This document shows, one piece after another, positions 1 through 15,027 of a stretch of 15,472 bases of DNA; position 1 is the first letter of the stretch, and each line of letters starts with the position of its first letter. The stretch spans positions 1-15,472 of the forward strand of contig JAEOTJ010000399.1 of assembly GCA_016839905.1 (NCBI GenBank), read 5' to 3'. This DNA is from Promethearchaeota archaeon. Lineage in GTDB: Archaea; Asgardarchaeota; Lokiarchaeia; Sigynarchaeales; SOKP01. The translations under genes and the position numbers were made by a program. The notes under the pieces are model-generated. The model was given only the letters and a program-made list of their open reading frames with translations. It was not told the DNA's origin and did no database searches.

Positions 1-105
1 AAGATTAACGCATCTGCGGGATTAAAAGCTGTTTTAAGTAAAGGTAAGAGCCTTCAAAAAAACAAAGATTCAACCACGGAGGATGATTTTGTCGGTGAAG
101 ATTAG
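1..105 (+). CDS. 3' end of a host gene (partial), probable Tn7-like attachment-site gene
   Basis: Open frame from the window edge to TAG at 103-105, giving the last 34 residues of a protein. The tail begins KINASAGLKAVLSKGKSLQ and ends in an acidic stretch (TTEDDFVGED). Its G+C content is visibly higher than that of the following DNA, which fits a conserved chromosomal gene. I do not recognise the family from this short tail. It lies immediately upstream of the transposon end and points toward it, as glmS does relative to Tn7. By that analogy its 3' coding end is the likely recognition site for the TniQ-type target selector encoded at 3905-5650; this is an inference. Upstream sequence is outside the window. 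Confidence 0.6.
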   Translation, partial: KINASAGLKAVLSKGKSLQKNKDSTTEDDFVGED

Positions 106-156
106 TTTTAAAATATATGAAAAAAAAGAAATTAAGTAAATTGTAATTTTGAATAA

Positions 157-290
157 TTATTGCAAAAAAAGATTTATGATAGTATAAAAATTTAATGTTT
201 TATCACTTAATTTCGTAAAATTTATGCAAATTCTTTCGATAAATCTTTGCAAAAAAAGGTAGAATGAAGAGAAAATAATGCAAAAAAAAA
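157..290 (+). repeat. Putative TnsB-binding repeats of the transposon end
   Basis: Four copies of a TGCAAA-centred motif lie in the same orientation: TGCAAAAAAAGAT at 161, TGCAAATTC at 225, TGCAAAAAAAGGT at 248 and TGCAAAAAAAAAAC at 279. The last three are spaced 23 and 31 bp apart; the first sits 64 bp further out, next to the proposed terminus. Multiple same-orientation sites of about 20 bp at an end adjoining the tnsAB gene are what TnsB-family transposases bind. A-tract flanks make some similarity inevitable in AT-rich DNA, but the repeated TGC is specific. Confidence 0.6.
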
Positions 291-292
291 AC

Positions 293-304
293 AATATTTA
301 AATA
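293..304 (+). promoter_or_regulatory. TATA box for the tnsAB-tnsC-tniQ unit
   Basis: AATATTTAAATA is centred about 29 nt upstream of the ATG at 328, the spacing expected for an archaeal TATA box driving a leaderless transcript. It overlaps the inner edge of the transposon-end repeats (the last TGCAAA site is at 279), so transposase bound there could repress its own operon; this last point is inference. Confidence 0.5.
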
Positions 305-327
305 GTTGAATTTTGATTATTAATTTA

Positions 328-3000
328 ATGAATGATCAAAAATACAACTCAAAAAGAATAGAATCTTTCTCTAAGGTCAGAAGAATCAAAACCACTCAAA
401 GTGCTGATAGAGGAAACCTTTTCACTAGAAAAAATTTAGTTGATGGTTTTGTTGAATTTGAATCATTGCTAGAAGAGGGATTATATCAATTATTAGATCA
501 TGATCCAAATTGTATTGATATGGAATCCCAACCATTAGAGATACCAAATGAGAATGGTAATAATTATACACCTGATGTATGGGCTAAATTTAAAGATGGA
601 AAGCAGTTCATTTTTGATGTAAAACATACAGAATTTTTAGAATCTCTTAAGGATGATAAAGAAAAAAGAGAAAAATGGGAAATTAGAGTTAAACGTGTGA
701 AAAAATATTGTAAAAAACATAATTTATTATATGAAATTGTTACAAATAGTGAAATATGGAATGAAAGATATGAAAATATCGACTTTTTTGGAAAAAATAT
801 AGAACAACCAAAGCTATTATTAAAATTAAAACCCTATATTAATAATACTTTAGACAAAGAAAGTGAAATATCTCGTATTCAATTAGCTCTATCTATTTCT
901 GAAAAAATTAACTTAGATATCAAACAGATCATTCCAAGTATAGATCATCTAATATATCACGATTTTTTTTTATTAGATTTTAACACAAAAATTACAGATG
1001 ATACAATTCTAATTAAGAGAACGAACGAAGATTCTCTAATATCTCCCGTTTATCAATACTTAATAGAAATGAAAAAAATTCACTTAGATGGGATAAACGA
1101 ATCATTAAAGATTACAATCAATCCCAAATCTCCTTATAGTAGTATGTCTGATTTAAGAGAATTCCAAGATCTCCCCATAGAAATTCAAGAAAAAATTCAG
1201 AATCAGATAAATCATTTAGATATATTTGATAAAGAAGATTTCAGTACTAAAATATTAAAAAATTATGCTATAAAAATTGATTTAGACTTTTCTACGCTAT
1301 ATCGCTGGAAATCAAAATTTGAAAAAATGGGTTGGAGAGGATTAATCCCTAATCATAAAAAGGCAGGTCGGAAAAGAGCATTTGATGAGAATGTAGAACA
1401 ATTGATACAAAAAGTTATAGAAGAATATTACTTAAGGGATACTCAACCATCAATATCGGGTAGTTATCAATTTTTCAAAATGAAATGTAAAAAACAAGGA
1501 ATTAAAGAAATCCCAAGTTATGATACATTTCGTTCAAGAATTAAGGAAATCTCTAATATTAAAAAGACTATTGGTAGACGTGGAAGAAAAATAAATAGGG
1601 ATATATATAAACCTCTTAATGGCGTTTATCCTTTTGGTAAACATCCATTAGATTTAATTGAAGTTGATCATTCCCAACTTGATATATATTTAGTAGATAG
1701 ATATAAAAGATTACCAATTGGGAGACCTTATTTAACAATAGCAATTGATGTATACTCAAGAATGATATATGGTTATTATTTGAGTTTCGATCCACCTAAT
1801 TATTTATCAGTTGGAGAATGTTTTTTAACAGGAATACTCCCAAAAGATGAAATACTTAAAAAATTTAAGATTAAAAATGAATGGAATATCTCTGGTATTC
1901 CTAAAAACATATTATTAGATAATGCAAAAGAATTTAGAAGTCAAGCATTTTTCAATTTTTGTAAACAATATAGAATTAAGATGAGATTTAATCCTGTTAA
2001 AAAACCAGATTTAAAACCACATGTAGAAAGAATTATTAGAACAATTAATGAAGCTATAAGAGATGATGGAATATCTGGTTATATCTTACCATTAATTGAG
2101 AAGAAAAAGACTCAGTATAATCCTGAAAAAAAAGCTTCTTTAACGTTAAATGGATTCGAAGAATGGTTAATCAATTGGATTGTTAAATTCTATCATAAGC
2201 GGCCACACGGTGGGATAAAATTAAAAGAGGGCATTGATATTTCTCCTTCTGATAGGTATGAACAAGGATTAACAGATGTAAATAATAGAACGGTTGGAAT
2301 ACCATTAATACCATCAGATTGGGAACAATTGAGATTTGATTTATTACCGTTTGAAAGACGTAAATTACAAAGAGATGGAATTAGACTCTTTAATTTAAAA
2401 TATTACCATAAAATTATTTCAAGTTTAAGAGAATTTCAAAAATCTCAAAAGAAACAATATATAGTAAGATATGATCCAAGAGATATAAGAGAAATCTATT
2501 TATGGGATGGAAAATCAAGAAGATACTATAATTTGTCAATAAAAAATATCCATCCTTTATTAGAGATTGATCCTTATGATCCACTTGATTTACCTCTAAG
2601 TTTGAAAGAATTTAATAAAATAAAACATAGTAGATCTATTAAAAAACCAATAACTTCAAGAGAATTAACAGAAGAACTTAAAAAAAGGCAAAAAATTATT
2701 AAAAAAGAAATAAATAAAACAAAAACAGCTAAAAGAGCTAGGAAAAGAAATGAAAAAATCCAACATTACAAGAGTAAAGCTACTTCCACTCAGGTTAGAT
2801 TAAAAGATACGGTAAAAGATATTGATAAAATAGAAGATAATAATTTTGAAAAAAAAGAAATGAAAGATCAGATCCCAAAAATTTCATTTGATGACTCTCA
2901 AAAAGATTCAAATGAAAATCTTAAAAATTATAAACCTAAAATTCTTCCAGTTAGTTTTTATGAAGAAAAAAAATATGAGGAGAAGAATAAAGATGAGTAA
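328..3000 (+). CDS. tnsAB: TnsA-TnsB fusion transposase (endonuclease plus DDE integrase)
   Basis: A single 890-residue protein joins both halves of the Tn7 transposase. The N-terminal part is a TnsA-type PD-(D/E)XK nuclease that nicks the 5' ends: the likely catalytic residues are E45 (in FEFES), D83 (TPDVW) and K99 (FDVKH), followed by a helical region to about 230. The rest is TnsB: an HTH segment around residues 305-345 (STLYRWKSKF), a second DNA-binding region to about 415, then the RNase H-fold DDE domain with D447 (EVDHSQLD), D531 (LLDNAKEF) and E567 (HVERIIRTIN). The D-E spacing is 35 residues, as in DD35E transposases. A basic beta-barrel-like segment and a highly charged tail follow, the latter the usual TnsC-contacting end. 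An in-frame TTG at 313 could add five residues; I chose the ATG at 328 because the TATA box fits it. The stop overlaps the tnsC start by eight bases. TnsA-TnsB fusions are known in some Tn7-like families; fusion implies cut-and-paste rather than copy-in transposition. Confidence 0.93.
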   Translation: MNDQKYNSKRIESFSKVRRIKTTQSADRGNLFTRKNLVDGFVEFESLLEEGLYQLLDHDPNCIDMESQPLEIPNENGNNYTPDVWAKFKDGKQFIFDVKHTEFLESLKDDKEKREKWEIRVKRVKKYCKKHNLLYEIVTNSEIWNERYENIDFFGKNIEQPKLLLKLKPYINNTLDKESEISRIQLALSISEKINLDIKQIIPSIDHLIYHDFFLLDFNTKITDDTILIKRTNEDSLISPVYQYLIEMKKIHLDGINESLKITINPKSPYSSMSDLREFQDLPIEIQEKIQNQINHLDIFDKEDFSTKILKNYAIKIDLDFSTLYRWKSKFEKMGWRGLIPNHKKAGRKRAFDENVEQLIQKVIEEYYLRDTQPSISGSYQFFKMKCKKQGIKEIPSYDTFRSRIKEISNIKKTIGRRGRKINRDIYKPLNGVYPFGKHPLDLIEVDHSQLDIYLVDRYKRLPIGRPYLTIAIDVYSRMIYGYYLSFDPPNYLSVGECFLTGILPKDEILKKFKIKNEWNISGIPKNILLDNAKEFRSQAFFNFCKQYRIKMRFNPVKKPDLKPHVERIIRTINEAIRDDGISGYILPLIEKKKTQYNPEKKASLTLNGFEEWLINWIVKFYHKRPHGGIKLKEGIDISPSDRYEQGLTDVNNRTVGIPLIPSDWEQLRFDLLPFERRKLQRDGIRLFNLKYYHKIISSLREFQKSQKKQYIVRYDPRDIREIYLWDGKSRRYYNLSIKNIHPLLEIDPYDPLDLPLSLKEFNKIKHSRSIKKPITSRELTEELKKRQKIIKKEINKTKTAKRARKRNEKIQHYKSKATSTQVRLKDTVKDIDKIEDNNFEKKEMKDQIPKISFDDSQKDSNENLKNYKPKILPVSFYEEKKYEEKNKDE

Positions 3001-3871
3001 AGTTAAAAATGTAAATATAGATAATCGGTTTTTACATCCAAATACAATTAATATGATTAATGAATCTGATGAGAGAAGAATACAATACATTAAAGAAGGT
3101 ATTTTTATAAATTATGACGCTGGAAAAGAAATAACTCAAGAAATTTTAGATTTACTTGATCAACCAATAAGACCAAGAATGGAAGGTCTTTTATTAATAT
3201 CTCCGACAAATAATGGAAAAACAACATTAATCAAGAAATTTATAAAAGATTTTTCAGAAAAAATAGGAAGATTTGGATATATTGAAACTCCTGAACGCAC
3301 AACTCTAAAAGAATTTTATATTGAAATACTAAATGTTCTTGGGTATCCTACAAAATCTACTAAAGCTACAGGGGATTATCGTAGAAAGATAATTGTTGCA
3401 ATTAAAAGGCATCATCTTAAATTACTTTTTATTGATGAAATTCATAATTTACTAGACTCAAGACGTGATCATAAAAGAGATGTGTTAAATGGCTTAAAAT
3501 CACTGAATAATAAGGCACAAATACCAATTGTATTAATAGGGATTAATAAAGCTAAGGAAATCCTTGATGAAGACGAGCAAGTGGCTGACCGATATCCACC
3601 AATCCTTTTACCAGAATGGATAAATGATAAAGAGTTTCGGGATTTGTTAGCAACATTTGAAGCTTACTTACCATTAAAAAAATCATCAAATCTCTATAAT
3701 AATAAAATATCTTCAATTATATTAAATTTAAGTAAAGGTAGAATAGGTAGGATATCAGCAATACTTAGAAAAACATCTATTAAAGCTATTAGAACGAAAA
3801 AAGAGCGTATTACACTTGATTTATTAAAGTCAATTCCTTTTAGATGGGAAAGAATAGATGATTTTGATTAA
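2993..3871 (+). CDS. tnsC: TniB/TnsC-family AAA+ transposition regulator
   Basis: A 292-residue AAA+ ATPase that links the target selector to the transposase. Walker A is SPTNNGKTT (residues 70-78), in the TniB style (TNNGKT); Walker B is LLFIDE (144-149); a sensor-1-like strand (IPIVLIG) follows at 177-183; and R200 in ADRYPP is a candidate arginine finger. The segment RMEGLLLIS before Walker A also resembles TniB. The frame is open upstream to an ATG at 2888, but that would overlap tnsAB by more than 110 bases; the ATG at 2993 sits in ATGAGTAA and overlaps the tnsAB stop, so translational coupling is likely, with AGGAG at about 2978-2982 as a possible ribosome site. The protein is shorter than E. 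coli TnsC (about 550 aa) and close to TniB size. By family, ATP-bound oligomers assemble on target DNA next to TniQ and recruit TnsA-TnsB. Confidence 0.92.
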   Translation: MSKVKNVNIDNRFLHPNTINMINESDERRIQYIKEGIFINYDAGKEITQEILDLLDQPIRPRMEGLLLISPTNNGKTTLIKKFIKDFSEKIGRFGYIETPERTTLKEFYIEILNVLGYPTKSTKATGDYRRKIIVAIKRHHLKLLFIDEIHNLLDSRRDHKRDVLNGLKSLNNKAQIPIVLIGINKAKEILDEDEQVADRYPPILLPEWINDKEFRDLLATFEAYLPLKKSSNLYNNKISSIILNLSKGRIGRISAILRKTSIKAIRTKKERITLDLLKSIPFRWERIDDFD

Positions 3872-3904
3872 GTATGGATGTATTATTTATAGGTATCGCA
3901 TATT

Positions 3905-5650
3905 ATGTTTGAAATTAAAAAAGCTGATGAAAAAAAAACTCTAATGAGCAATATAATCCCATTCAACATATATAATATACCTTATTATCCATCTTTATGG
4001 GTAGGAAAACCAATACCATTAAAAGGAGAATCCCTTTCCTCTTGGATGATTAGAACATCATTAGCAAATCTAGAGAAGCTATCTTCATTGATAGGAGATT
4101 TAGGATATTATCCAGTACAAATCGATCTTGATCTTAATTGGAAAAAAGATTTAATTCAATTCTTATCAGAAAATACAGGTATTCAGAAGAATATATTAAG
4201 AAAACTTAGTTTATATTCATTAACCAGAAAAATAAACAGTTTTAATAGAAAAAATGAAAAAATCTTGAGAACTTATAATGATTTATGGTTTACGGGTTGG
4301 AGAAAAAGAACTAATAATGGATTAAGATTTTGTCCATTATGTTTAAAAGAAGATAAAATACCATTTTTTAGAAAAAAATGGAGATTATCATTTATTACAT
4401 TTTGTTCTGATCATAATTGTTTTCTCGAAAATAGATGTCCAAAGTGTAATACATCAATATCTCCATACGAATTAAATTGGGATTCAAGTTTAGTTAAATG
4501 TTACAAGTGTGGATACGATTTAAGAAAAACAGAACCATTAATGATCAAACAATCTGACTCTATACTAATAGGTTCTAAATACTTCTTTCAATATTATACA
4601 CTTATAGATCTTCAAAAGGTTTTTTCTATTGGATGGATCATAGCTAATCATTGTTCTTTTTCTGATAAAATATTTAATAATCATCCTTTGGCTAAATCAA
4701 AGCTAATAAATGGTTTAGAGAAGAGATATTTAGGAGCTAATAATAAAAAATCTTATTTTATGAATATCCAAGCAATTTTTTTAATAATTGGAACTGCAAT
4801 CAAACTTTATCATAATAAACCTTTGCTAATTAATTTTCTAAATAAATTTTTTACAACTAGAGAACATTATTTTACTAAAGTTCCGTATATATGTCTAGAA
4901 GAAAAATGTGACTATACCAATTCTAGTTATGCTAAAATACTTATCCATTTAAGAAAACATCTAGATAAACAGATATTCTATTGTGATATATGTAATAAGG
5001 GATTTTTGAGGAAATGGAACCTTAAAAAACATAAAATTTTACATAATAAACTTCATCCTTTTAAATGTTTTGTAGATAATTGTAAGAAAAAATTTAGGCA
5101 CGAAAAGCATTATATTCAACATTTAAGACAAGTTCATAATAAAAAACCATATATATGTCATATTTGTAATAAAAGATTTGACAGAAGATATAATTTAAAA
5201 ACACATATTAGAATTCATACAGGAGAGAAACCATATAAATGTAAAGAATGTGGGAAATATTTTACCCAAACAAGTGCTTTAAATGTTCATTCAAGAATTC
5301 ATACAGGTGAGAGACCGTATAAATGTGAAGTATGTGATAAGGCATTTACACAATCTCATTCTTTAACAGAACATATGAGAACTCATACGGAAGAGAGACC
5401 TTATGATTGTCCTAAATGTGAAAAATCCTACAAACGAAAACACCACTTAGATGTTCATTTACGAACTCATTCAGCTGAAAAACCATTTAAATGCGAAAAA
5501 TGTGGGAAAGGATTTTCTAATAAAAGTAATCTTAACAAACATAAAGCCGTCCATTCAGATGAGAGACCTTTTGTATGTAATATATGTGGAAAAAATTACA
5601 AGTATAGTGGTGGATTATCTAAACATAAAAACATCCATTCAAATATATAA
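3905..5650 (+). CDS. tniQ: TniQ/TnsD-type target selector fused to nine C2H2 zinc fingers
   Basis: The 581-residue protein starts with a TniQ domain: signature GESLSSWMIR at residues 41-50, then the TniQ zinc-binding region with C143/C146, C167/H170, C178/C181 and C199/C202, and a helical part to about 325. Residues 328-578 are nine consecutive classical C2H2 fingers. Ligands are C330-C335-H348-H352, C360-C363-H376-H380, C388-C393-H406-H411, C418-C421-H434-H438, C446-C449-H462-H466, C474-C477-H490-H494, C502-C505-H518-H522, C530-C533-H546-H550 and C558-C561-H574-H578. Fingers 4-9 repeat every 28 residues with linkers HTGEKP, HTGERP, HTEERP, HSAEKP and HSDERP, as in eukaryotic Kruppel-type proteins. 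In Tn7, TnsD reads the attachment site and recruits TnsC; here the finger array is the obvious candidate reader, able in principle to cover about 27 bp. The gene follows tnsC by 33 bp in the same unit. Similar A+T content and codon use to tnsAB argue against recent capture from a eukaryote. An alternative start is Met14 (3944). Confidence 0.93.
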   Translation: MFEIKKADEKKTLMSNIIPFNIYNIPYYPSLWVGKPIPLKGESLSSWMIRTSLANLEKLSSLIGDLGYYPVQIDLDLNWKKDLIQFLSENTGIQKNILRKLSLYSLTRKINSFNRKNEKILRTYNDLWFTGWRKRTNNGLRFCPLCLKEDKIPFFRKKWRLSFITFCSDHNCFLENRCPKCNTSISPYELNWDSSLVKCYKCGYDLRKTEPLMIKQSDSILIGSKYFFQYYTLIDLQKVFSIGWIIANHCSFSDKIFNNHPLAKSKLINGLEKRYLGANNKKSYFMNIQAIFLIIGTAIKLYHNKPLLINFLNKFFTTREHYFTKVPYICLEEKCDYTNSSYAKILIHLRKHLDKQIFYCDICNKGFLRKWNLKKHKILHNKLHPFKCFVDNCKKKFRHEKHYIQHLRQVHNKKPYICHICNKRFDRRYNLKTHIRIHTGEKPYKCKECGKYFTQTSALNVHSRIHTGERPYKCEVCDKAFTQSHSLTEHMRTHTEERPYDCPKCEKSYKRKHHLDVHLRTHSAEKPFKCEKCGKGFSNKSNLNKHKAVHSDERPFVCNICGKNYKYSGGLSKHKNIHSNI

Positions 5651-5956
5651 AATAATAGTTTGCTAAAATTAAACAAAATTATAATATTGAATAACATTAA
5701 TTATTAACAAGGAACATTACATTTTAGGAAAACTCTTAATAAACTTATCTCTCCTTTCTATTTTCTAATTCTGGTATTATCATAATAGAACTCATTATAT
5801 TTCTGAATATAATTGTAGGGAAATGGATTCATTATTGATGGAAGAAAGGCATTCCTTAAACCTTACGTTAAAGCAAGAATTACTCTAAGAATTATGCTAT
5901 ACTTGATTCAGAATGATGGAAACCTTGATTATGCTATAGTAGAATAAAGAATCATA
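5651..5956. other. Intergenic stretch, possible 42-codon gene remnant
   Basis: About 300 bases between the tniQ stop and the minus-strand gene ending at 5957. Most is AT-rich with frequent stops. Bases 5819-5947 on the plus strand form an open stretch after a TAG (GNGFIIDGRKAFLKPYVKAR and on to a TAA), visibly less AT-biased than its surroundings and lacking a start codon, so it may be the 3' remnant of a gene I cannot identify. I looked here for the distal transposon end and found no convincing inverted TTTTTGCA array. Confidence 0.3.
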
Positions 5957-6385
5957 TTATTTTTTAATTACTTTACCATCATCATATTCAAATTCATCAT
6001 CAAATTGATCACCAAATTCAAATATTACATCTTCTACAGTTTTTGGGTGTACTCCTAGATGAGAAGCAATTTTTTCAACACTAATTGTTTTAGATCTTTT
6101 AAACATTGTAGGAAGTCTTGCAATAACTATTTTTTCCAAATTATTTAAATCTCTTTGAGTTGTAACTCCTAAAAATTCTTGTTGAAATAACATTCTTAAT
6201 CCGATTAAATCAATTCTCCAAGTAGTCATTAATTTATCTGAGTTATTGTCAATCCATTCTTCAATAATTTTATTTAAAACTGCTGATTTGGTTGTTCCTT
6301 TAATACCAATTAAATCAGCTAAAATTCTATCGAAAATCATATTGAGACTAAATGTGGCTCTCGTAGTTTTTTCCTTTTTTTCCAT
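5957..6385 (-). CDS. Predicted DNA-binding protein, RHH-like N-terminus plus C-terminal HTH
   Basis: A 142-residue protein starting at the ATG complementary to 6383-6385. Residues 7-48 (TRATFSL, then DRILADLIG, then TKSAVLNKIIEEWI) have the strand-helix-helix spacing of ribbon-helix-helix (CopG/Arc-like) proteins. Residues about 96-120 (KTISVEKIASHLGVHPKTVEDVI) look like a helix-turn-helix that would read DNA or hold a partner; the end is acidic (DQFDDEFEYDDG). The frame extends 18 codons further upstream, but TTTATAAAT at 6406-6414 lies about 25 nt before the internal ATG, so a leaderless start there is preferred. It is divergent from the gene at 6593. A regulator of neighbouring genes is plausible but unproven; I cannot name the family. 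Confidence 0.65.
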   Translation of the reverse strand: MEKKEKTTRATFSLNMIFDRILADLIGIKGTTKSAVLNKIIEEWIDNNSDKLMTTWRIDLIGLRMLFQQEFLGVTTQRDLNNLEKIVIARLPTMFKRSKTISVEKIASHLGVHPKTVEDVIFEFGDQFDDEFEYDDGKVIKK

Positions 6386-6405
6386 TATGGTATAATTTTT
6401 CTTGA

Positions 6406-6414
6406 ATTTATAAA
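6406..6414 (-). promoter_or_regulatory. TATA box for the minus-strand RHH/HTH gene
   Basis: TTTATAAAT on the minus strand is centred 25 nt upstream of the ATG at 6385, the normal archaeal spacing for a leaderless message. It decides the start chosen for that gene. Confidence 0.45.
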
Positions 6415-6592
6415 AAAGAATTATTTCCTTATATATCATAAAAATGGATACTTTTTATTAAATTTTTCATAAAAACTACATCAATCTTTAAATAGGTATT
6501 TCTATATATTTTATTTGAGAATGTTTTATTATTCCCATTATCATATAAAAATATAAAAACTAAACTTAATATATCAAATATGGTACTCAATT

Positions 6593-6955
6593 ATGTCGGT
6601 AAAAATTGAAAATCTAATAAAAATCTTAAGATCTAAGAATCGAAAATTAAAAAAAGGTACAAGAATAACTTATAATCTGCAGACTTTATCTCCTACTACT
6701 ATTGAAATTATAGTATCTTTAAATATTAGCGGTGAACACTTCTTACGATTAGCAAAGAAAATAGCAAAACAACATAAAATTGAATTCTTAAGAGAATATG
6801 ATTTCAATATGTCAAGATGGAGTGAGCCTGCGGAAGTTAAACCAATATATTACATCTCTGGAATTAATTGTGAACGTGTAGATCAATTTAATGAAGCGCT
6901 GAATAGGATTCTTTCAGCGAAAGATGAATTATATCAGGTAGAACTAGCAGCTTAA
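6593..6955 (+). CDS. Small hypothetical protein upstream of an M42-like peptidase
   Basis: A 120-residue protein starting MSVKIENLIKILRSKNRK, with a basic N-terminus, an alternating beta-like middle (ITYNLQTL, TIEIIVSLNI) and a helix-rich C-terminus ending LYQVELAA. No membrane segment, signal peptide or known motif is visible, and I do not recognise the family. It is followed after about 30 bases, with a strong GGGGAGG ribosome site, by the M42-like peptidase frame in the same direction, so the two are probably co-transcribed. A TTAATATA element about 20-28 nt upstream of the start may be its promoter. Confidence 0.6.
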   Translation: MSVKIENLIKILRSKNRKLKKGTRITYNLQTLSPTTIEIIVSLNISGEHFLRLAKKIAKQHKIEFLREYDFNMSRWSEPAEVKPIYYISGINCERVDQFNEALNRILSAKDELYQVELAA

Positions 6956-6974
6956 CAAGAGATAATTTGATAAT

Positions 6975-6981
6975 GGGGAGG
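6975..6981 (+). promoter_or_regulatory. Strong Shine-Dalgarno site that fixes an unusual start
   Basis: GGGGAGG ends seven bases before an ATA at 6989 in the peptidase frame. No ATG, GTG or in-frame TTG lies near it except a TTG 300 bases downstream, well inside conserved sequence. The site therefore points to a non-standard start or to a changed start codon. Confidence 0.4.
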
Positions 6982-6988
6982 ATTAATA

Positions 6989-8275
6989 ATAACATCAGAA
7001 TTTCTTAGTTTAAATGATTTACTCAAAGAAAAAAAACAGATATTTGAAGATCTTAAAATAATTTCTAATACTCCAGGACCAACCAGATGTGTTGCAAGAG
7101 TAAAATGTAATTTTGATATAAGACTTAGTAAAAATGAAGAATTTCCGATTTTCAATGAGATAAAAAAGATTGTTAGAAGATTCAACAAAAATCATAATAT
7201 AAATATTCTTATAAAGCAGCACCATGGAAATTTATTACTTTTAACAGGTTTTGATGATTTTCCATCAAATGATGAAATTAGAAATATACCTATAACATTG
7301 GGTTCTCATTTAGATGAAATAACATTTATGGTCACAAAGAAATATATATATGATTCCAAAAAAGCAAGATTAATTAATCCAATATTTTGTGCAAAACCTT
7401 TAAAAAGGCGATATTCCAATGATAAAAAGCGTATTTTAGACGTTTATGGTTTCAGAAGTGAAGGAGGAAAAAGATTATTTAAAAAGGTTGGTGATGGTTA
7501 TCTATATATGGAAGAAAATGGTTTTTATTCAAATGATACCGAGTATTATATAAAATCAGTCGAAGCTCCTAATTTTAGAGAAGGAGATTTAATTGTTTTT
7601 AGTAATAAAAATCTACAGACTAAATTTAACAACGGAGATGGCATTATTTTCGAAGGAAAAGCCTTGGATGATAGAGTAGGGGTATTATCTCATTTATATA
7701 CAATGAGAGAATTAGCAAAAATAAAGATTAAAGCCAAGCTAATATTAGTTGGAGATGAAGAAGGTGTATGTAGTGATTTAGCCTGGGCAAAACTAACCAG
7801 ACCAACTTTTAAAAAATATTGTAAGAAAAACGGAATAATTATAGTTTGTGATGGAATAAATGGTTTTAGTTTAGAGGAATTCATATATATGGGTAATACA
7901 CATGTAAATAAAGCAATTATTCCTGTTTATTTGGCAGCTGGTAAGGGTTCTGGAGATCCAGGAATCTTTTCTTTAATGAGGGATAAAGTAATTCCGAAAA
8001 TTAAAGAAATTAGTTCATTTGAAGGAGTAACTACAACAGACTATATTAGTCGCAGTTTTGATCCTAAAATAATGGATGATTTTTCTTCTATCATTTTTAT
8101 TGATTGGTCAAATGGACCAGTTAGAGATCCGACAGCTATTTGTCATTACTATGAATCAGTTTCAATTAATCAAGTGATTCATATAATAGGAGTCACTTTC
8201 TATTCATATCTTTATTTTTATCATTATTATGAAGAAGAATTAAAGGATTTATTGTCTAAAATGAATTTAATTTAG
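6989..8275 (+). CDS. M42-like metallopeptidase / aminopeptidase family protein (start codon unusual)
   Basis: The frame encodes about 428 residues from 6989 to TAG at 8275. M42-type landmarks appear in order: an N-terminal SNTPGPT segment near 7064-7084, the metal-site motif SHLDEITFMV (from 7304; His then Asp-Glu), KALDDRVGV (bridging aspartate) near 7660, GDEEGV (catalytic glutamate pair) near 7750, CDG near 7849, and CHYYES with a possible last metal-binding histidine near 8144. Such enzymes use two divalent metals to remove N-terminal residues from peptides, usually as cytosolic multimers. The start is odd: the open frame runs back to a stop at 6971-6973 with no ATG or GTG, and the only standard alternative, TTG at 7298, would cut off the conserved N-terminal part and begin two codons before the SHLDE motif. 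The Shine-Dalgarno site at 6975 favours an ATA near 6989. Loss of the start codon, a sequencing error, or true use of ATA all remain possible. Confidence 0.7.
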   Translation: MTSEFLSLNDLLKEKKQIFEDLKIISNTPGPTRCVARVKCNFDIRLSKNEEFPIFNEIKKIVRRFNKNHNINILIKQHHGNLLLLTGFDDFPSNDEIRNIPITLGSHLDEITFMVTKKYIYDSKKARLINPIFCAKPLKRRYSNDKKRILDVYGFRSEGGKRLFKKVGDGYLYMEENGFYSNDTEYYIKSVEAPNFREGDLIVFSNKNLQTKFNNGDGIIFEGKALDDRVGVLSHLYTMRELAKIKIKAKLILVGDEEGVCSDLAWAKLTRPTFKKYCKKNGIIIVCDGINGFSLEEFIYMGNTHVNKAIIPVYLAAGKGSGDPGIFSLMRDKVIPKIKEISSFEGVTTTDYISRSFDPKIMDDFSSIIFIDWSNGPVRDPTAICHYYESVSINQVIHIIGVTFYSYLYFYHYYEEELKDLLSKMNLI

Positions 8276-8400
8276 AAAAATTGAATTATTTAATACGATA
8301 ATATATTTTAATAGTTATTCTATCTATTTCTTAATGACATTAAATTAAATCAAATATATCTTTAAATAAAATAAAAATTAGAAATTAAGATCTACTCTTT
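8276..8400. other. AT-rich intergenic spacer
   Basis: Between the peptidase stop and the minus-strand zinc-ribbon remnant. It contains TCTTTAAATAAAATAA at about 8358-8373, a TATA-like element with no gene at the right distance. Nothing else is recognisable. Confidence 0.3.
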
Positions 8401-8613
8401 TTATTGTTCACTTCCACAAGTTTCGCAGAATTTAGCTTCTTGTTTTATTTGATATCCACAATGACTACAAAATTTTGTATTTGGAATTAAATTTTAATTC
8501 TGCGTTAAATTTTTATTCGGTATATCAAAATTATATATAACAACAAGTATTATTATGATAGGAACACCAATTAAAATAAATGTCGTTAAGTATGGACCAT
8601 TTTGAAGTATCAT
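8401..8613 (-). pseudogene. Broken small membrane protein with C-terminal zinc ribbon
   Basis: On the minus strand one frame reads from ATG (8613) through a membrane segment (YLTTFILIGVPIIIILVVIY), then a TAA at 8494-8496, and in the same frame continues into a clear zinc ribbon, FCSHCGYQIKQEAKFCETCG, ending in TAA at 8401-8403. Two CxxC pairs and a short tail (SEQ) complete it. The membrane-helix-plus-zinc-ribbon layout is common in small archaeal membrane proteins of unknown function. The single in-frame stop between the two recognisable halves suggests a nonsense mutation; a sequencing error is the alternative. The frame may have begun further upstream, since it is open to about 8670 without another ATG. 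Confidence 0.6.
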
Positions 8614-8644
8614 AATTCCACCAAATGTTATTATACATGTTGAT

Positions 8645-8890
8645 ATGATCAATGAATTAAAAAATTACTATAAAATCGTGAACACATCAGAACTAATAAG
8701 ATTTATTATTGGAAAGATACATAGATTGACTTTTGAGGATGGATCTTTATATTTAATATCAAAGGAGTTAGGAATAGGAGAAATTAAACAAAAGGAAGAG
8801 AAAAATGATAGCGAGGATATAAAGATTTCTGATATAAAAATTTCTGAAATAAAAGAAGGAATGAAGAATATTTCTTTTTTGGAAGTGTGA
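8645..8890 (+). pseudogene. N-terminal fragment of an RPA-like single-strand DNA-binding protein
   Basis: An 81-residue frame beginning MINELKNYYKIVNT. It contains a helical region with ISKELGIGEI and, after a charged linker with a repeated KISDIKISEIK pattern, the phrase EIKEGMKNIS, which resembles the first strand of archaeal RPA/ssDNA-binding OB folds, where DLxxGMxNVxxxGxV is typical. In a full protein an OB fold of about 100 residues would follow; here the frame stops nine codons later and runs into the 66-bp repeat block at 8904. I infer truncation by rearrangement at or near that block. It could be a complete small protein of another kind; the match rests on a short motif. Confidence 0.4.
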
Positions 8891-8903
8891 AATTAAGAAA
8901 AAA

Positions 8904-8969
8904 TATTTTCTCAATAATTTATCTATATTCTCACGAATTTTTCTTCATTTTCAAAAATTATTCTTTGTT
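8904..8969 (-). repeat. 66-bp repeat block, copy A (three units of about 21 bp)
   Basis: Read on the minus strand, the block consists of three degenerate units: AAGAATAATTTTTGAAAATG, AAGAAAAATTCGTGAGAATA and GATAAATTATTGAGAAAATA. It matches copy B (11201-11266) at 56 of 66 positions with no gap, in the same orientation. Similarity stops abruptly on both sides. The three-unit array with a period of about two helical turns resembles transposase-binding arrays at Tn7-like ends. It forms the 3' end of the minus-strand RHH gene and follows the truncated RPA-like frame. Confidence 0.65.
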
Positions 8970-9127
8970 GCATTAGAATCAAGTATCTCTTTAGCTTTAT
9001 TCCTAATGAGTTCATTTAACATCTCAGAAACAGATCGATACCCTAGCTGTGGATTATCATTAATATATTTTTGAAATACCTCAAATAACTCATAATTTAT
9101 CTTCAAATCATACTTTTTCTTAACCAT
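8951..9127 (-). CDS. Small ribbon-helix-helix DNA-binding protein
   Basis: A 58-residue protein from ATG (9127) to TGA (8951-8953). It starts MVKKKYDLKINYELFEVFQK and continues with the RHH-type phrase NPQLGYRSVSEMLNELIRNKAKEIL. This strand (YDLKI), helix, GYRSVSE turn, helix pattern is typical of archaeal CopG/ParD-like regulators and antitoxins that bind operators as dimers. No toxin gene adjoins it. TTTTAAAG around 9150-9160 on the minus strand lies about 30 nt upstream and could be its TATA box. The last five codons and the stop lie inside repeat block A, so its C-terminus may have been altered by the event that placed the block. Confidence 0.7.
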   Translation of the reverse strand: MVKKKYDLKINYELFEVFQKYINDNPQLGYRSVSEMLNELIRNKAKEILDSNATKNNF

Positions 9128-9206
9128 TAATTGAAAAGAATAAATAATATCTTTAAAATATGGTTTTTAAGAGACTTGAAGGATAGATTTATATTATTAT
9201 GATGAT

Positions 9207-9243
9207 TAAATAATATGATAATAATATGATAATAATAATTTAA
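9207..9243 (+). repeat. Short AT-rich tandem repeat upstream of the secreted-protein gene
   Basis: ATAATATGATA occurs twice in tandem, followed by further ATAATA units, between the divergent RHH and secreted-protein genes. It may be a simple low-complexity run or a spot for regulator binding. It lies 20-55 bases before the ATG at 9263, so it also covers the expected promoter position. Confidence 0.35.
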
Positions 9244-9262
9244 TAAAAAAGGTGAATCAAAA

Positions 9263-10762
9263 ATGAAAAATAAGAAATATGTAATAATGGGTATTTTAAT
9301 TGGAATGATTTTAATGACAATGGGAAATCAAGTAACAGGTATAGTGGAGTTATCTACAGAGATTGAAGATGAAATTAAAATAACAAAATTGAAAACAAGT
9401 GATTATTATGAAGAAAGTTCTGGTATCTATATAGGAAAAACTAATGAATATGACATTGTCATTATTTCTGGAAATGAATTATATTACATTAATGATACTA
9501 ATAATGGAACGCTATATAAAGTTAATTTGGATGATCCAACTTTTACATCTAATCTTGTTCGTGGAAATTTAGGTGATATTAGAGATATGTGTAAATCTGA
9601 GGAAGATATGTATTTAGCTACATATGAATATAATAGTGCAATCATGAAGTTAGATTTAGATACATTAATGTATAGCAAAATTGATTCATCCCCATCTGGG
9701 GTTCCGTTAAAAATATCTGCATATTTAGGTTTAACTCATCGGTTAGATCTTTTATGGACAACATATAATGATGTGTATCATTGCACTAATTCAACTGGGT
9801 TATGGGTTACCTCACTTGTTTTAGATGGTATATATCCAGAGGGAGTTGATATTGATTATACTACTGATGCAATTGGTTATAATTCAACGAATATATGGAC
9901 TATCAATATGATAAGTAAAACTTACAATCTTAGGGTAACTAGCACAGATATTAATAGTGTATGTATTAATGGTGATGAAATATATTATGTAAGAGGTCAA
10001 TATAATGATTTGAAAAATGGACAAATTAGAAAGTATGATATAAGTGAATCGACTACAACAATGATTAAAAATGATTGTGATTACCCTACAGATGTTGAAT
10101 ATGCTTCAGGTTATGTTTATTGGATAGATAAATCATATTGGAGCACAGACGCGATGATTTATAAGTGTTATTATAATGGAGATTATCTAACAAAAATTTC
10201 AAGAGCTTATGGTAATAGTTTCTCAGGAAAGATTGAATTTATGTCTAATCAAGAATATGGTGTATATTATGATACTTGGAGTTTTATAGAAAGTAATATA
10301 TATGTAGTTAATGGAAGTGATATAACACCACCCGAAACGATTGAATGGAATTCTTTCAATGAAACAATTGATTTTAATAGCTGGCATATAATCGATTGGG
10401 AAAAATCTTATGATTTGAATGGAATACAGGATTATGAATTATTAGTTTCTAATGTAGAAGATTTTTCTATTTATAACACATATTGGATTCCAGATGATGG
10501 TGAATTAAGTCATTCATATCAGAGATACGATTTTTCTAATATGGGATATGGAGATTATTATTATAAGATAAGAACTAGGGATAATAATTTGCCAACATCA
10601 AATATAGGTGTGTGGAGTGACATATTAAAGATTTCTTATCCAGAACCAGAAGAATCAAAGGAAACAGAGGAACCTTCAATTCCAGGATATCCATTAATAC
10701 TACTCTATGCAATAGGAATAATATCAGTAATATATATTATTAGAAATCAACAAAAGAGATAA
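9263..10762 (+). CDS. Secreted beta-propeller-like surface protein with Loki-type C-terminal sorting tail
   Basis: A 499-residue exported protein. Residues 1-26 are a signal peptide (MKNKKYVIMGILIGMILMTM, then a small-residue region). Residues about 45-350 contain repeated strand pairs such as NELYYINDTNNGTLYKVNLD, DMYLATYEYN, DEIYYVRG and GYVYWIDKSYWS, typical of a beta-propeller that reads like YWTD/NHL-type repeats. Residues about 352-460 (TPPETIEWNSF onward to GVWSDILKISY) look like a fibronectin-III-type beta sandwich. A Pro/Glu-rich spacer follows, then PSIPGYPLILL, a hydrophobic helix and a basic end (NQQKR), matching archaeal CTERM sorting signals of the kind abundant in Lokiarchaeota. 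The ribosome site GGTGA (9251-9255) precedes the ATG by seven bases, and a hairpin terminator follows the stop. The protein is probably cell-surface anchored; the ligand is unknown. Confidence 0.75.
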   Translation: MKNKKYVIMGILIGMILMTMGNQVTGIVELSTEIEDEIKITKLKTSDYYEESSGIYIGKTNEYDIVIISGNELYYINDTNNGTLYKVNLDDPTFTSNLVRGNLGDIRDMCKSEEDMYLATYEYNSAIMKLDLDTLMYSKIDSSPSGVPLKISAYLGLTHRLDLLWTTYNDVYHCTNSTGLWVTSLVLDGIYPEGVDIDYTTDAIGYNSTNIWTINMISKTYNLRVTSTDINSVCINGDEIYYVRGQYNDLKNGQIRKYDISESTTTMIKNDCDYPTDVEYASGYVYWIDKSYWSTDAMIYKCYYNGDYLTKISRAYGNSFSGKIEFMSNQEYGVYYDTWSFIESNIYVVNGSDITPPETIEWNSFNETIDFNSWHIIDWEKSYDLNGIQDYELLVSNVEDFSIYNTYWIPDDGELSHSYQRYDFSNMGYGDYYYKIRTRDNNLPTSNIGVWSDILKISYPEPEESKETEEPSIPGYPLILLYAIGIISVIYIIRNQQKR

Positions 10763-10763
10763 T

Positions 10764-10790
10764 AAGATTTTTTAAATCTTTTTTATTTTA
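10764..10790 (+). terminator. Hairpin plus T-tract terminator of the secreted-protein gene
   Basis: AAGATTT, a three-base loop TTT, and AAATCTT form a perfect 7-bp stem (10764-10780), followed directly by TTTTATTTTA. It starts two bases after the stop codon. T-tracts alone terminate archaeal RNA polymerase, so the tract is probably the working part. Confidence 0.55.
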
Positions 10791-10800
10791 AATACAAAAG

Positions 10801-10830
10801 AGAATGAAAAAGTCTTATCATTCTTTTATA
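10801..10830 (+). terminator. Second inverted repeat with T-tract
   Basis: AGAATGA (10801-10807) and TCATTCT (10818-10824) form a 7-bp stem with a 10-base loop, followed by TTTATA. It may back up the first terminator. No gene is seen between here and 11008; the rest of that stretch is AT-rich without recognisable features. Confidence 0.3.
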
Positions 10831-11008
10831 TGTTGTATCATCATTGTCTTTTGAATCTTTATTTATCCTACAAATTTAATTGATTAATCTTATTAACAAT
10901 AAAAGTTTCCAAGTTAAATAAGAATTTTAAAAACTAAACAGAGGAATTCTTTTAAAATTTTCAGAATTAAGTATTTTCAAATATTAAAAATTAATGAGGG
11001 AATGAAAA

Positions 11009-11224
11009 TTGGCATATATCCAAATAACTGATGATGAGATAATTATTAATACTGGAATACATGAACCGAGACTTAAAATATACAATAAAGGAGATTATAA
11101 GCAATTACGAGCACGAGAAAAATATGAGGAAAAATTATCAGATTTGATAAGTTTTTCAGTGATTACATCTTCATTAAACAATAGTAAGCCCCTTTTTATT
11201 TATTTTCTCAATAATTTTTCCTAA
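11009..11224 (+). pseudogene. 71-residue ORF, probably a truncated N-terminal fragment
   Basis: A frame beginning at TTG 11009 (GAGGG at 10996-11000 gives a well-placed ribosome site). It reads MAYIQITDDEIIINTGIHEP, then a Lys/Glu-rich helical part (RAREKYEEKLSDLI). The first part looks like a real protein start. From about residue 62 the frame is the reverse side of the minus-strand repeat block B (11201-11266) and ends there as LFIYFLNNFS, so the natural C-terminus has probably been replaced. I do not recognise the family. Confidence 0.4.
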
Positions 11225-11266
11225 TTCTCATTAATTATTCTTTATTCTCATAAATTATTCTTTGTT
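11201..11266 (-). repeat. 66-bp repeat block, copy B (three units of about 21 bp)
   Basis: Minus-strand units are AAGAATAATTTATGAGAATA, AAGAATAATTAATGAGAATT and GGAAAAATTATTGAGAAAATA without its last base. It is 56/66 identical and ungapped to copy A at 8904-8969, and the flanks are unrelated. It abuts a TniQ gene relic on one side and a truncated ORF on the other, supporting an origin from a Tn7-like element. Confidence 0.65.
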
Positions 11267-11353
11267 ATATGTCCTAATCATACAAGAAGACAATGATTCT
11301 CCATTAAATGGATGTGGATTTTCTGCCCAATACTTAATAGGATCAAGGTTCAT
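11255..11353 (-). pseudogene. tniQ: Relic of a second tniQ gene (N-terminal 32 codons)
   Basis: The minus strand from ATG (11353) to TAA (11255-11257) encodes MNLDPIKYWAENPHPFNGES followed by LSSCMIRTYNKE. The stretch W-x5-P-F-N-GESLSSxMIRT matches the start of the TniQ domain in the intact protein at 3905 (GESLSSWMIRTS at residues 41-52), with Trp replaced by Cys. The homology ends at the edge of repeat block B, where the frame stops. GGATATAAAAAA lies just upstream, so even the promoter region may survive. This is the 5' end of a dead target-selector gene from another Tn7-like element; its sequence differs from the intact copy, so it is not a recent duplicate. Confidence 0.6.
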
Positions 11354-11487
11354 TGTTTGTTATTTTTTATATCCTATTCTTTTCTTTTAACTTACTACTA
11401 CTAGAAATTAATTACATTGTTTATATAAAGTTTTTATCTGTTTTTCAAAAAAAGGACTCAATAAGAATAACTTTTCGTTTATAATAA

Positions 11488-13062
11488 TTAAATCATATAT
11501 TCCTTAATATGATAAGCAAGGGTTTCACTGAGAAATGGAGGAACTGCATTTCCCACATGTTTGAATTGATTTGAACGACTTGTTTTGAATATAAAGCTAT
11601 CTGGAAATGATTGTAGCCTTGCTGCTTCTCTCACACTTAAAGTTCGATCAAGTTTGGGATGAATATATCTATAACCATCTTTATGAATGTGAGCAACAAC
11701 CGTCCATGATGGTTTATTCCAAACTAATCTTTTTAATTTATCCCCAAATTTTTTTCCATCACCATAAGGCATACATTCCTTTATTGTTTTTTCTATAATT
11801 CTTTGAAATTTTACAAGATCAGTTTTATACTTCTTATGGTTTTTATAAAAGTTTTTTATCTTCTTAGGTAAATCTTTATAATTATCTCCTTGATCCATAA
11901 ACTCATAGATTTTTTTATCTCGCTTAGATGTGTTTCTTGGTATAAAATTATAAAGAATTCCATTATCTATTTTTTCTCTTAAATAATTTATATATGGATT
12001 ATTTCTCAAAGCTTTATAATTTAATATTTCACCATAATCTGATGTATTAAAATCAATTAGGTCTTCAATTGCATCTTTAACTGTTAAATTAGATTCGTAA
12101 AATTTTAAAGGTCTAAACTTAGAATTTTTATCAGGAAAATTAAATATATTTGGTAATTCTATTTCATTATAATTATTCAAAAGCTCATTTTTTTCTATTA
12201 GAAGATTGCGTTTGCTAGCAATTTCTTTTGTATTACATTTTACCCCTAATAAAAATAATCTTTTTCTCTTTTGAGGAACATTAAAGTCCACAGCATTAAG
12301 TATTTTATCTTGGATTGAATAACATTGCTCTTTAAAATCAATTTTTATTTGATTGATAACTGCACCATTATCAAATGATTTCATACCAGGAACATTTTCA
12401 ATTAAAAAGACTGAAGGTTTAAAATATGATACATAATTCAAATACCTCTTGTATAGAATGTTTCTTGGATCATTATAGAACCAGTGAGTCTTCTCATTAT
12501 ATTCTAAATCATCTAGTTTTAGCTCAGGGTCATCCCAGATTTGCTCTCTTATTAGTGATCTTATTTTTGGTCTTCCTACATGAGAAAAACCTTGACATGG
12601 TGGACCTCCAATTATTAAATCAAAATTTAAATCAGTTACATCTAATAAATCTTTAATACTATTCGGAAAACCATCGTTTTCAGTAAGATCTTGACAAAGG
12701 ACTGCAGAATTTTTAAAATTAGCTGAATAAGTTTTGCAAGCAGAAAAATCATTGTCAATACCTAATAGAACATTGAATCCTGCTTTTTTAAAACCTAGAC
12801 TTAAACCCCCAACCCCACAAAATAAATCTAAAACATTAATTTTTCCATTCTTATAGTTTAGTTTTGTAAACTTTTTTATCTGTTTTTCATTAAAATCATC
12901 TACCTTCTCTTTATAACTCATAAACCTTCTGTGTATTCTTAAGAATGAGTCCTCCGAGATCTGCTCTTCCTGTCGAAATTTTTTTTTTTTAAAAATTAAT
13001 CCTTTTTCCTTATAATAGCAAGTATTATTCCATTTGAATAGAAGTTGCTGATTTACAGTCAT
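11488..13062 (-). CDS. dcm-like: DNA (cytosine-5) methyltransferase
   Basis: A 524-residue C5-cytosine methyltransferase with all main motifs in order: I, DLFCGVGGLSLGF (79-91); IV, GGPPCQGFS with catalytic C156; VI, ENVPG (222-226); VIII, QKRKRLF (264-270); then a long variable target-recognition region, IX, SVREAARLQSFPDSF, and X, HVGNAVPP near the end. It transfers a methyl group from S-adenosylmethionine to C5 of cytosine in a specific sequence that cannot be predicted here. The 75-residue basic N-terminal extension before motif I includes a long A-run (FKKKKF), and about 40 residues between motifs IV and VI form an insertion. Its gene follows the mismatch glycosylase gene by 41 bases on the minus strand, so the two are probably co-transcribed. 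No restriction endonuclease is visible next to it; the GHKL ATPase at 13906 is the nearest candidate partner. Confidence 0.93.
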   Translation of the reverse strand: MTVNQQLLFKWNNTCYYKEKGLIFKKKKFRQEEQISEDSFLRIHRRFMSYKEKVDDFNEKQIKKFTKLNYKNGKINVLDLFCGVGGLSLGFKKAGFNVLLGIDNDFSACKTYSANFKNSAVLCQDLTENDGFPNSIKDLLDVTDLNFDLIIGGPPCQGFSHVGRPKIRSLIREQIWDDPELKLDDLEYNEKTHWFYNDPRNILYKRYLNYVSYFKPSVFLIENVPGMKSFDNGAVINQIKIDFKEQCYSIQDKILNAVDFNVPQKRKRLFLLGVKCNTKEIASKRNLLIEKNELLNNYNEIELPNIFNFPDKNSKFRPLKFYESNLTVKDAIEDLIDFNTSDYGEILNYKALRNNPYINYLREKIDNGILYNFIPRNTSKRDKKIYEFMDQGDNYKDLPKKIKNFYKNHKKYKTDLVKFQRIIEKTIKECMPYGDGKKFGDKLKRLVWNKPSWTVVAHIHKDGYRYIHPKLDRTLSVREAARLQSFPDSFIFKTSRSNQFKHVGNAVPPFLSETLAYHIKEYMI

Positions 13063-13103
13063 TTATATGAGTTTTATTTTTGATCATTGTTCTATGAATA
13101 AAT

Positions 13104-13796
13104 TTAATCACTAATATTTTTAAATGAATTGTTTTTCCTATAAAAACAAATGTCTGAGATGAAACAGATTTGGCATTTTGGAACTTTTGGTAAACATAAT
13201 GTACCCCCAAAATCTAAAACAGCATAATTAAATCTTATGTAGGAAGAGATAGGCAGTAATGATTCAGAAAATTCCCATAAAAATTTATCAGTTTTTGGCG
13301 TTGGTGTGCGGCTTGTAACATTAAATATACGGTGATATACTCGAATAAAATTACTATCTAGTAATGCTCTTTTTTTCTTAAAACCAAAACATAAAATGGC
13401 ATTTGCATTATAGTCACCAATTCCAGAGAGTTTTTTTAAATCATTAAAAGTATTTGGTATCTTTTGTTTATATTCATTCCTAATTTGATCCCTTAATTTG
13501 ATTATTTTGGATGCTCTATATTTTAAACCTAAGGATTTAATTAATTTGAAAATAGTATCATAATCTGAATTAAAGAATTTTTCCAAATTTGGATATTTTT
13601 GTAAGAATTCAATATAAACTGAAAGCACTTGATTAGCATTTGTTCTTGTTAGTAAGATTTCACTTATTAATACCTTATATGGTGTTCTATCTTTTCTCCA
13701 AGGATAATCTCTTAAGTTTTTTTTAGCCCATTCTAAGATTGCTTCTTGAAATCTCTCTTTAATTATTACTATAGAAATATCCTCAATAATTATCAT
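13104..13796 (-). CDS. mig-like: Mig-type T/G mismatch DNA glycosylase (HhH-GPD, 4Fe-4S)
   Basis: A 230-residue HhH-GPD glycosylase. The helix-hairpin-helix is LSGIGDYNANAIL (123-135) and the catalytic aspartate is D147 in LLDSNFIRV. Y129 stands where endonuclease III has its catalytic lysine and MutY a serine; a tyrosine there is the mark of the archaeal Mig thymine glycosylase, which lies beside a C5 methyltransferase on a Methanothermobacter plasmid. The 4Fe-4S loop is intact: C201-x6-C208-x2-C211-x5-C217. The segment LWEFSESLLPISSYIRFNYA also fits Mig. The enzyme would remove T from T:G pairs made when 5-methylcytosine deaminates, protecting sites methylated by the enzyme encoded 41 bases downstream. 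No MutY C-terminal (NUDIX-like) domain is present. TTATATAA at about 13823-13832 gives a TATA box about 30 nt upstream of the ATG. Confidence 0.87.
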   Translation of the reverse strand: MIIIEDISIVIIKERFQEAILEWAKKNLRDYPWRKDRTPYKVLISEILLTRTNANQVLSVYIEFLQKYPNLEKFFNSDYDTIFKLIKSLGLKYRASKIIKLRDQIRNEYKQKIPNTFNDLKKLSGIGDYNANAILCFGFKKKRALLDSNFIRVYHRIFNVTSRTPTPKTDKFLWEFSESLLPISSYIRFNYAVLDFGGTLCLPKVPKCQICFISDICFYRKNNSFKNISD

Positions 13797-13821
13797 CCTT
13801 ACTTTTTTTTTAATATTTATT

Positions 13822-13832: not shown

Positions 13833-13878
13833 TTATTTTATAGAAAATCAATATAGATATTAATATAAAAATAATAAT

Positions 13879-13901: not shown

Positions 13902-13905
13902 AAAA

Positions 13906-15027
13906 ATGAAAGAAATAACGACAAAATTAAGTGCTTCCGCAAATGTAATTCAAGTATTAGGAGATCAATTGATTAGCAATGATTCTGTTGCTTTAATAGA
14001 ATTAATTAAAAATTCTTATGATGCAGGTGCTACAGAAGTCGAGATCGAATTTAAAGGCGCTCTAAAGGAAGGATCTGGAGAAATAATCATAAAAGATAAT
14101 GGTAATGGAATGGATTTAAAAACTATAAAGGAAGCATGGATGGTAATTGCAACAAATTTTAAGAAAATTGAAAAAAAAAGGACTTCAAGGAAGAGATCTA
14201 TACTTGGAGAAAAAGGAATAGGAAGATTTTCTGCATCAAAACTAGCTAAAAAACTAGTTATGATAACAAGTTCCAAAAATGATGAGGAAATTTGCGTTCA
14301 GTTTGATTGGGAACTTTTTACAGATATTAATAAAATGTTAGATGATTTTGAGATTGTGATACAAATTGGAAAACCTAATAAATTTTTATCACAAGCAGGT
14401 ACGATTTTAAAGTTAGTTGGTTTGTGTAGTGATTGGAATAAATCAAAGGTTAATAAAATCACAAACAATTTGACCCGATTAATTAATCCTGTAAAACCTA
14501 TTGAAGATTTTCAGATTAATATTAAATTTTCAGATAATGAATATAAAGAATTTAATGGTATTTTAAAACCTCCAAAATCTATTGAAAATCCTCTTTATAA
14601 AATGAAAGGAAGTGTGGATAAATCAGGAAAAATAAATTTTGAATTTAGTACAATAAAGAATATTCCATCAGATAGAAAATTTCTGAAGAAGGAGGTTAAA
14701 CAATTAAAATTTAAAAAAACAATCCCATTTGATTTTGAATTTAGAGTCTGGAATTTAAGTTCAAGTTCAATTAAAGAATTATCTCATGCTTTAAAGGTAC
14801 CCATGAAAACTATCAGAGAAGATATAAAATTTGTTGCAGGAATAAGTCTGTATAGAGATAACTTTAGAATTTTACCTTATGGAGAGCCCAATGATGATTG
14901 GTTAAGATTAGATTTAAGAAGAGTAAATTATCCAACTTTCAGATTAAGTAACAATCAAATAGTAGGAACAGTAACATTTCAAGAAATAGATGCCACTTTA
15001 CTTAAAGATCAAAGTAATAGACAATGA
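13906..15027 (+). CDS. GHKL (HSP90/MORC-like) ATPase of a restriction-modification-type locus, ending at an in-frame TGA
   Basis: A 373-residue frame with the GHKL ATP-binding fold: N box ELIKNSYDAGA (E32, N36, D39), G1 box DNGNGMD (64-70), G2 box GEKGIGRFSASKL (101-113). A middle domain and the family phrase GISLYRDNFRILPYGEPNDD follow. GHKL ATPases of this kind, related to MutL/MORC, are known from bacterial and archaeal restriction-modification and defence islands, often beside C5 methyltransferases, which fits the genes at 11488-13796. The frame stops at TGA (15025-15027) inside LKDQSNRQ-stop-LIEN, where relatives commonly continue NREGLI; a GGA to TGA change would explain it. The same frame then stays open for 148 codons to the window end, so the real gene extends further. 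Confidence in the fold is high; the partner and exact role are inferred. Confidence 0.85.
   Translation: MKEITTKLSASANVIQVLGDQLISNDSVALIELIKNSYDAGATEVEIEFKGALKEGSGEIIIKDNGNGMDLKTIKEAWMVIATNFKKIEKKRTSRKRSILGEKGIGRFSASKLAKKLVMITSSKNDEEICVQFDWELFTDINKMLDDFEIVIQIGKPNKFLSQAGTILKLVGLCSDWNKSKVNKITNNLTRLINPVKPIEDFQINIKFSDNEYKEFNGILKPPKSIENPLYKMKGSVDKSGKINFEFSTIKNIPSDRKFLKKEVKQLKFKKTIPFDFEFRVWNLSSSSIKELSHALKVPMKTIREDIKFVAGISLYRDNFRILPYGEPNDDWLRLDLRRVNYPTFRLSNNQIVGTVTFQEIDATLLKDQSNRQ

Follow-up and report, generated by a model that had tools for sequence, protein, structure and literature searches.

How does an archaeal Tn7-like transposon find its attachment site when its targeting protein carries a long array of Kruppel-type C2H2 zinc fingers? 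This question is raised by a gene on contig JAEOTJ010000399.1 of the Promethearchaeota archaeon assembly GCA_016839905.1 (positions 1 to 15,472 of the forward strand; this whole stretch of 15,472 nucleotides is called the window), which encodes a TniQ domain fused to nine such fingers. We propose that the fusion is a TnsD-type target selector whose C2H2 array reads the attachment site, a reading that draws on sequence comparison and structure prediction and to which we assign a probability of about 0.75. The gene is laid out as follows.

3905..5650, plus strand: TniQ-C2H2 fusion gene, 581 residues, an intact frame with Pfam and structure matches
4010..4426, plus strand: TniQ domain, residues 36-174, Pfam E 7.3e-20
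4886..5644, plus strand: nine C2H2 fingers, residues 328-580, by Pfam and finger alignment

The fusion is real and recurrent. An earlier note on this DNA had described a TniQ domain joined to nine fingers, six of them at exact 28-residue spacing, and both statements were borne out, the first by the single frame with its Pfam match and the second by the finger alignment, in which the final six of nine tandem units keep exactly that spacing. Fingers 4-9 have canonical spacing and TGEKP-type linkers, fingers 1-3 being irregular, and the tandem units, 28-residue period and linkers are those of a Kruppel-type C2H2 array; codon shuffles of the gene gave at most one C2H2 motif per trial (2000 trials). 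The TniQ core bears the zinc ligands C-x2-C...C-x2-H and matches by sequence a solved TniQ.1 chain (E 2.5e-5) and TnsD 8v32 (E 3.7e-5). In the predicted structure (mean predicted local distance difference test score 83.6, with residues 1-28 below 50) solved TnsD/TniQ chains align to the first half and DNA-bound C2H2 proteins to the second; the best 50 rows of a Foldseek search with this model are C2H2 or CTCF/TFIIIA-type chains, TniQ appearing only in the VIA-align list. A protein search with the TniQ part returned 19 proteins, six of which have C2H2 domains, the window's included, and the five others share the fusion layout at 52-56% identity to the window's protein. An assembly chimera at about 4880, named in the earlier note as the event that would undo the fusion, is contradicted by these five independent relatives and by an even GC content at third codon positions, and we regard it as ruled out, its probability being practically nil.

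The fusion gene stands third in an operon of the order tnsAB-tnsC-tniQ, in which all three transposition genes are open frames. The two genes before it are given here.

313..3000 (alternative ATG at 328), plus strand: TnsA-TnsB fusion transposase, by family and solved-structure matches
2993..3871, plus strand: TnsC/TniB AAA+ ATPase, Pfam TniB E 4.4e-44, solved TnsC E 9.8e-12

The transposase matches solved TnsB (E 1.3e-47), its DDE residues are assigned by eye to D452, D536 and E572, and its TnsA part gives a TnsA-like NCBIfam match (E 1.7e-7) that lies under the family cut-off. The window thus contains a TnsB-type DDE transposase with TnsA, a TnsC AAA+ ATPase and a TniQ/TnsD protein, and judged by these family matches in operon order it takes in one end of a Tn7-like element, as had been inferred. 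As regards a CRISPR-associated transposon (CAST), no Cas family was found among the ten open reading frames scanned, the far part of the element lying outside the window and no whole-window search for CRISPR arrays having been made. The fusion has the TnsD-type architecture of a TniQ core with a C-terminal extension, which would here read DNA, and both the match of its core to solved TnsD/TniQ and its place in the operon agree with the proposal that it is a TniQ-type target selector.

In our model the TnsA-TnsB fusion would cut and join DNA and TnsC would serve as the ATPase adaptor, both by homology, and the TniQ core of the selector would recruit TnsC. Its nine C2H2 fingers would read the attachment site, a task that in classical TnsD falls to a helix-turn-helix extension, with fingers 4-9 probably providing the principal base contacts, across some 18 bp, as known C2H2 proteins suggest. 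If true, such elements would encode natural zinc-finger-guided transposases whose target could be re-coded by changing fingers, and two questions become testable, namely whether the address of a natural transposon can be predicted finger by finger and whether mobile elements helped long C2H2 arrays to spread among archaea.

Target choice by known Tn7-like elements, according to the accessible parts of the closest survey, makes use of helix-turn-helix-type TnsD extensions that read DNA from a TniQ core, of CRISPR effectors, of TnsE and of TnsF (PMC10293859). TnsD of Tn7 and the TnsD-like proteins of CAST resemble the window's protein in their zinc-ligand TniQ core, long C-terminal DNA-reading extension and adjoining TnsC (PMC2918618, PMC10293859, in their accessible parts), but their extension consists of helix-turn-helix domains and not of a C2H2 array. 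TnsF of Tn6022 is also a zinc-finger reader used with TniQ, and one TnsF-TniQ fusion is reported, but its fingers are LIM-like and accompany an inactive tyrosine-recombinase fold; the term 'C2H2' is absent from the available main text of the same survey (PMC10293859). Among the matches listed from full-text literature, most subscription journals not being covered, no TniQ protein with a C2H2 array is described, in keeping with the suggestion that the fusion was undescribed. The array shares its 28-residue repeats and TGEKP-type linkers, as well as sequence and structural matches, with the eukaryotic array proteins ZFP568, PRDM9 and CTCF, from which it differs in belonging to an archaeal transposon targeting protein; no KRAB, SET or BTB domain is reported by Pfam for the fusion.

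The residues that would touch DNA are conserved as expected of a specific DNA reader, the role that had been suggested for the array. Among the six proteins of the window's clade, contact positions -1, 2, 3 and 6 of fingers 4-9 have a mean pairwise identity of 0.783 versus 0.536 at other finger positions (permutation p 0.0008, a guide only, in that positions are assumed independent and shared descent is ignored), and over all nine fingers the values are 0.743 for contacts, 0.504 for the 'other finger' class, 0.584 for the TniQ core and 0.967 for zinc ligands. As the contacts are largely constant in the six relatives, one address is probably shared within the window's clade, and other archaeal clades, with different arrays, probably have other addresses. 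RNA or protein can also be the ligand of C2H2 fingers, and an array of that kind, serving for instance to dock a further targeting factor, would accommodate the irregular fingers 1-3. We nevertheless consider this very unlikely, as the conserved positions are those of DNA contact, the spacing and linkers of fingers 4-9 are those of DNA-binding arrays, and the structural matches listed are DNA-bound proteins.

Besides the assumptions behind that p-value, several observations weigh against the array as a reader of the attachment site. In a second archaeal clade of such fusions, the L001-type, contacts reach 0.508 versus 0.515 at other positions (p 0.54; core 0.641; four proteins, the fifth, P0024, having been dropped as it diverges after about residue 400). 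This lack of an excess also implies that the excess in the window's clade is not inherent to those positions, and the address seems to be fixed among the window-type proteins and not among the L001-type ones; the modular, potentially rapidly evolving array pictured in the earlier note is not supported inside the window's clade, where the contacts of six proteins are conserved, the differences being seen between clades. Finger-less TniQ proteins (P0002, P0005, P0008 and P0010) fall in the same larger clade as the window's, hence fingers are not required by all such elements. A site pattern derived from the C2H2 code, a crude prediction, does not occur in the left flank of the element beyond chance, 84-100% of shuffles scoring equally. 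In 61 genomes of the family of a Lokiarchaeota record it occurs at 22 places in 19 genomes, 9 of the 22 lying in frames that contain a GGQDSK motif (in 8 cases 215 residues before the stop), which we take to be 2-hydroxyacyl-CoA dehydratase activase genes. The largest group of similar loci takes in 8 of the 22 places. For scrambled sites it takes in 5 of 30 (twice) or 2 of 13 (two controls in all, the first with 33 places, 30 of them with loci); this search did not clearly beat its controls, and we treat it as a weak lead on which nothing is built.

The array might instead bind the element's own DNA, at its ends or at the tns promoter, for regulation or end pairing, and leave the choice of target to the TniQ core or to a second TniQ. 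Conserved contacts would be expected here too, and a second TniQ, the finger-less P0010, lies on a contig equal in length (15574) to that of P0007 and probably identical with it. However, a six-frame profile search found no second full TniQ gene in the window, the predicted site, crude as it is, fits no stretch of the window completely (8 or 9 of 11 positions at best), and the C-terminal extension of known TnsD reads the target, according to the accessible parts of PMC10293859. We judge binding to the element's own DNA unlikely and retain the array as attachment-site reader.

Searches of proteins and genomes for TniQ-finger fusions, such as had been recommended, yield, beyond the five window-type relatives, the second archaeal clade and the loci L047 and L050. 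The L001 query returned 22 proteins, five with C2H2 domains including the query, one of them named Hydrothermarchaeales and another just archaeon; the L047 query returned two, the sole C2H2-bearing one being L047 itself, named Sigynarchaeota. A search of genome contigs gave 13 loci, L001 and L002 alone being archaeal by title and the 11 others matching the TniQ part only; in the phylum of L001 (23 genomes) only its own genome matched, and 41 pattern matches in viral contigs included no relative. Among the 227 genomes assigned to the phylum of the Lokiarchaeota record, which we regard as Asgard, TnsAB relatives occur in 12 and Pfam TniQ in eight, seven of them above the cut-off. G162 (L047) encodes a full TniQ core, 13 fingers and, after these, another TniQ core that is truncated where the contig stops, and the Asgard genome G037 (L050) a full core with 6-7 fingers; in L001, L047 and L050 the array-bearing TniQ genes adjoin TnsC or TnsAB genes. 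In G160 (L058) and G086 (L117), the genes after TnsAB and TnsC encode array-bearing proteins whose N-terminal part is short. One L058 protein matches Pfam TniQ at E 2.2e-4, below the cut-off, and the other L058 protein and that of L117 give no Pfam TniQ match and resemble the first, a weak indication that these proteins may be TniQ-like. G091, G092 and G093 encode finger-less TniQ proteins, one with a C-terminal part similar to the helix-turn-helix region of the transposase, and the double TniQ proteins P0002, P0005 and P0008, one of them from a metagenome-assembled genome named Lokiarchaeota, resemble the window's protein in their TniQ cores but carry these in tandem.

A tree of 52 TniQ cores groups the six window-type proteins in a clade (97/92), with P0010 and the double TniQ proteins nearby, and unites the five L001-type proteins in a separate one (100/100). 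Judged by these neighbours alone, the window's uncultured host is probably an Asgard archaeon, of the group closest to eukaryotes. The presence of fingers requires two changes over the labelled rows, two being forced by starred branches, a count that leaves out 32 unlabelled rows and a tree from which L058 and L117 are absent; the arrays may have been gained once and then lost, or gained several times. We lean slightly towards the wider view that archaeal Tn7-like transposons use modular C2H2 arrays, with some 5 to 13 fingers and different between lineages, on full or shortened TniQ cores, as re-codable protein addresses.

Other arrays and TniQ fragments were seen in passing. L002 (9980-10513, plus strand; Lokiarchaeota) encodes a truncated, 177-residue TniQ of the double TniQ type. 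L055 (1-1440, plus strand) and L057 (1866-3197, minus strand) encode 8-finger C2H2 arrays followed by similar C-terminal parts that by eye resemble a PD-(D/E)xK nuclease, and the L055 contig also has TnsA/TnsB and TnsC genes. Stand-alone 8-finger arrays in frames of 380-430 residues are present in many Asgard genomes (L019, L023-L038), and several adjoin a frame with 4-5 fingers.

Where the element begins, and what lies beside it, bears on what the array could read.

1..119, plus strand: left flank, C-terminal end of an insertion-sequence-type transposase (stop at 103-105) and insertion sequence end, outside the Tn7-like element, by peptide and DNA matches
120..127, no strand: A8 tract, likely insertion site of the insertion sequence, with a T or A tract here in 5 of 6 matched copies
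142..312, no strand: putative tnsA-side element end, with TGT at 142-144 and four TGCAAA-centred, TnsB-site-like repeats (161, 225, 248, 279)

The four TGCAAA words, between 161 and 284, look like TnsB sites, and a cluster of four within 130 bp arose in none of 300 block shuffles; the exact terminal base at this side is a guess. A Tn7-like transposon is expected to have TnsB sites at both ends and a 5-bp target duplication. Here TnsB-site-like repeats occur at one end only, and no second Tn7-like end was found within the window; an inverted copy of the longer word TGCAAAAAA is absent there, so the other end of the element probably lies outside it. The left-flank peptide has matches in 11 of the 227 Asgard genomes at E up to 1 (best 2.8e-4), one of them inside a 531-residue frame, and a Pfam MULE match at E 0.02, under the cut-off. 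Similarity of the left-flank DNA to six aligned matches stops at AAAATATATG and diverges beyond it, and judged by these six matches the flank appears to be the terminus of an insertion sequence that exists in multiple copies and inserted separately. The claim that the array reads the 3' end of the adjoining host gene did not survive this result. We rejected the left-flank gene as a target, since its transposase-like peptide recurs in several Asgard genomes and an insertion sequence end with an A tract precedes the element, whose true neighbour would then lie outside the window.

At 11255-11353 (minus strand) a 32-residue frame, MNLDPIKYWAENPHPFNGESLSSCMIRTYNKE, resembles the TniQ N-terminus (six-frame profile match E 2.5e-5), by which match we take it as a remnant of another TniQ gene. 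This remnant and the insertion sequence at the element's edge would suit a decayed element whose fusion has no current function; with three open transposition genes, a fusion kept in five relatives and conserved contacts, such decay is highly improbable.

The remaining genes include three that we infer to be Tn7 cargo, and a restriction-type gene set would suit such cargo according to the accessible parts of PMC8649781.

11488..13062, minus strand: candidate cargo, C5 cytosine methyltransferase, Pfam E 6.2e-61, PADLOC DrmMII / type II methyltransferase
13104..13796, minus strand: candidate cargo, HhH-GPD glycosylase, MutY-like, by family matches
13906..15027, plus strand: candidate cargo, HATPase protein like the BbrUII/HgiDII restriction enzymes, NCBIfam scores below curated cut-offs

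An M42-peptidase-like protein at 7298-8275 (plus strand) has a weak Pfam match (E 1.9e-5, barely over the cut-off), and a search of the 65 genomes in the family of the Lokiarchaeota record, run without a positive control, did not find its gene. Finally, a 499-residue protein encoded at 9263-10762 (plus strand), with a DUF6923 match below the cut-off, has a signal-like N-terminal and a membrane-like C-terminal stretch.
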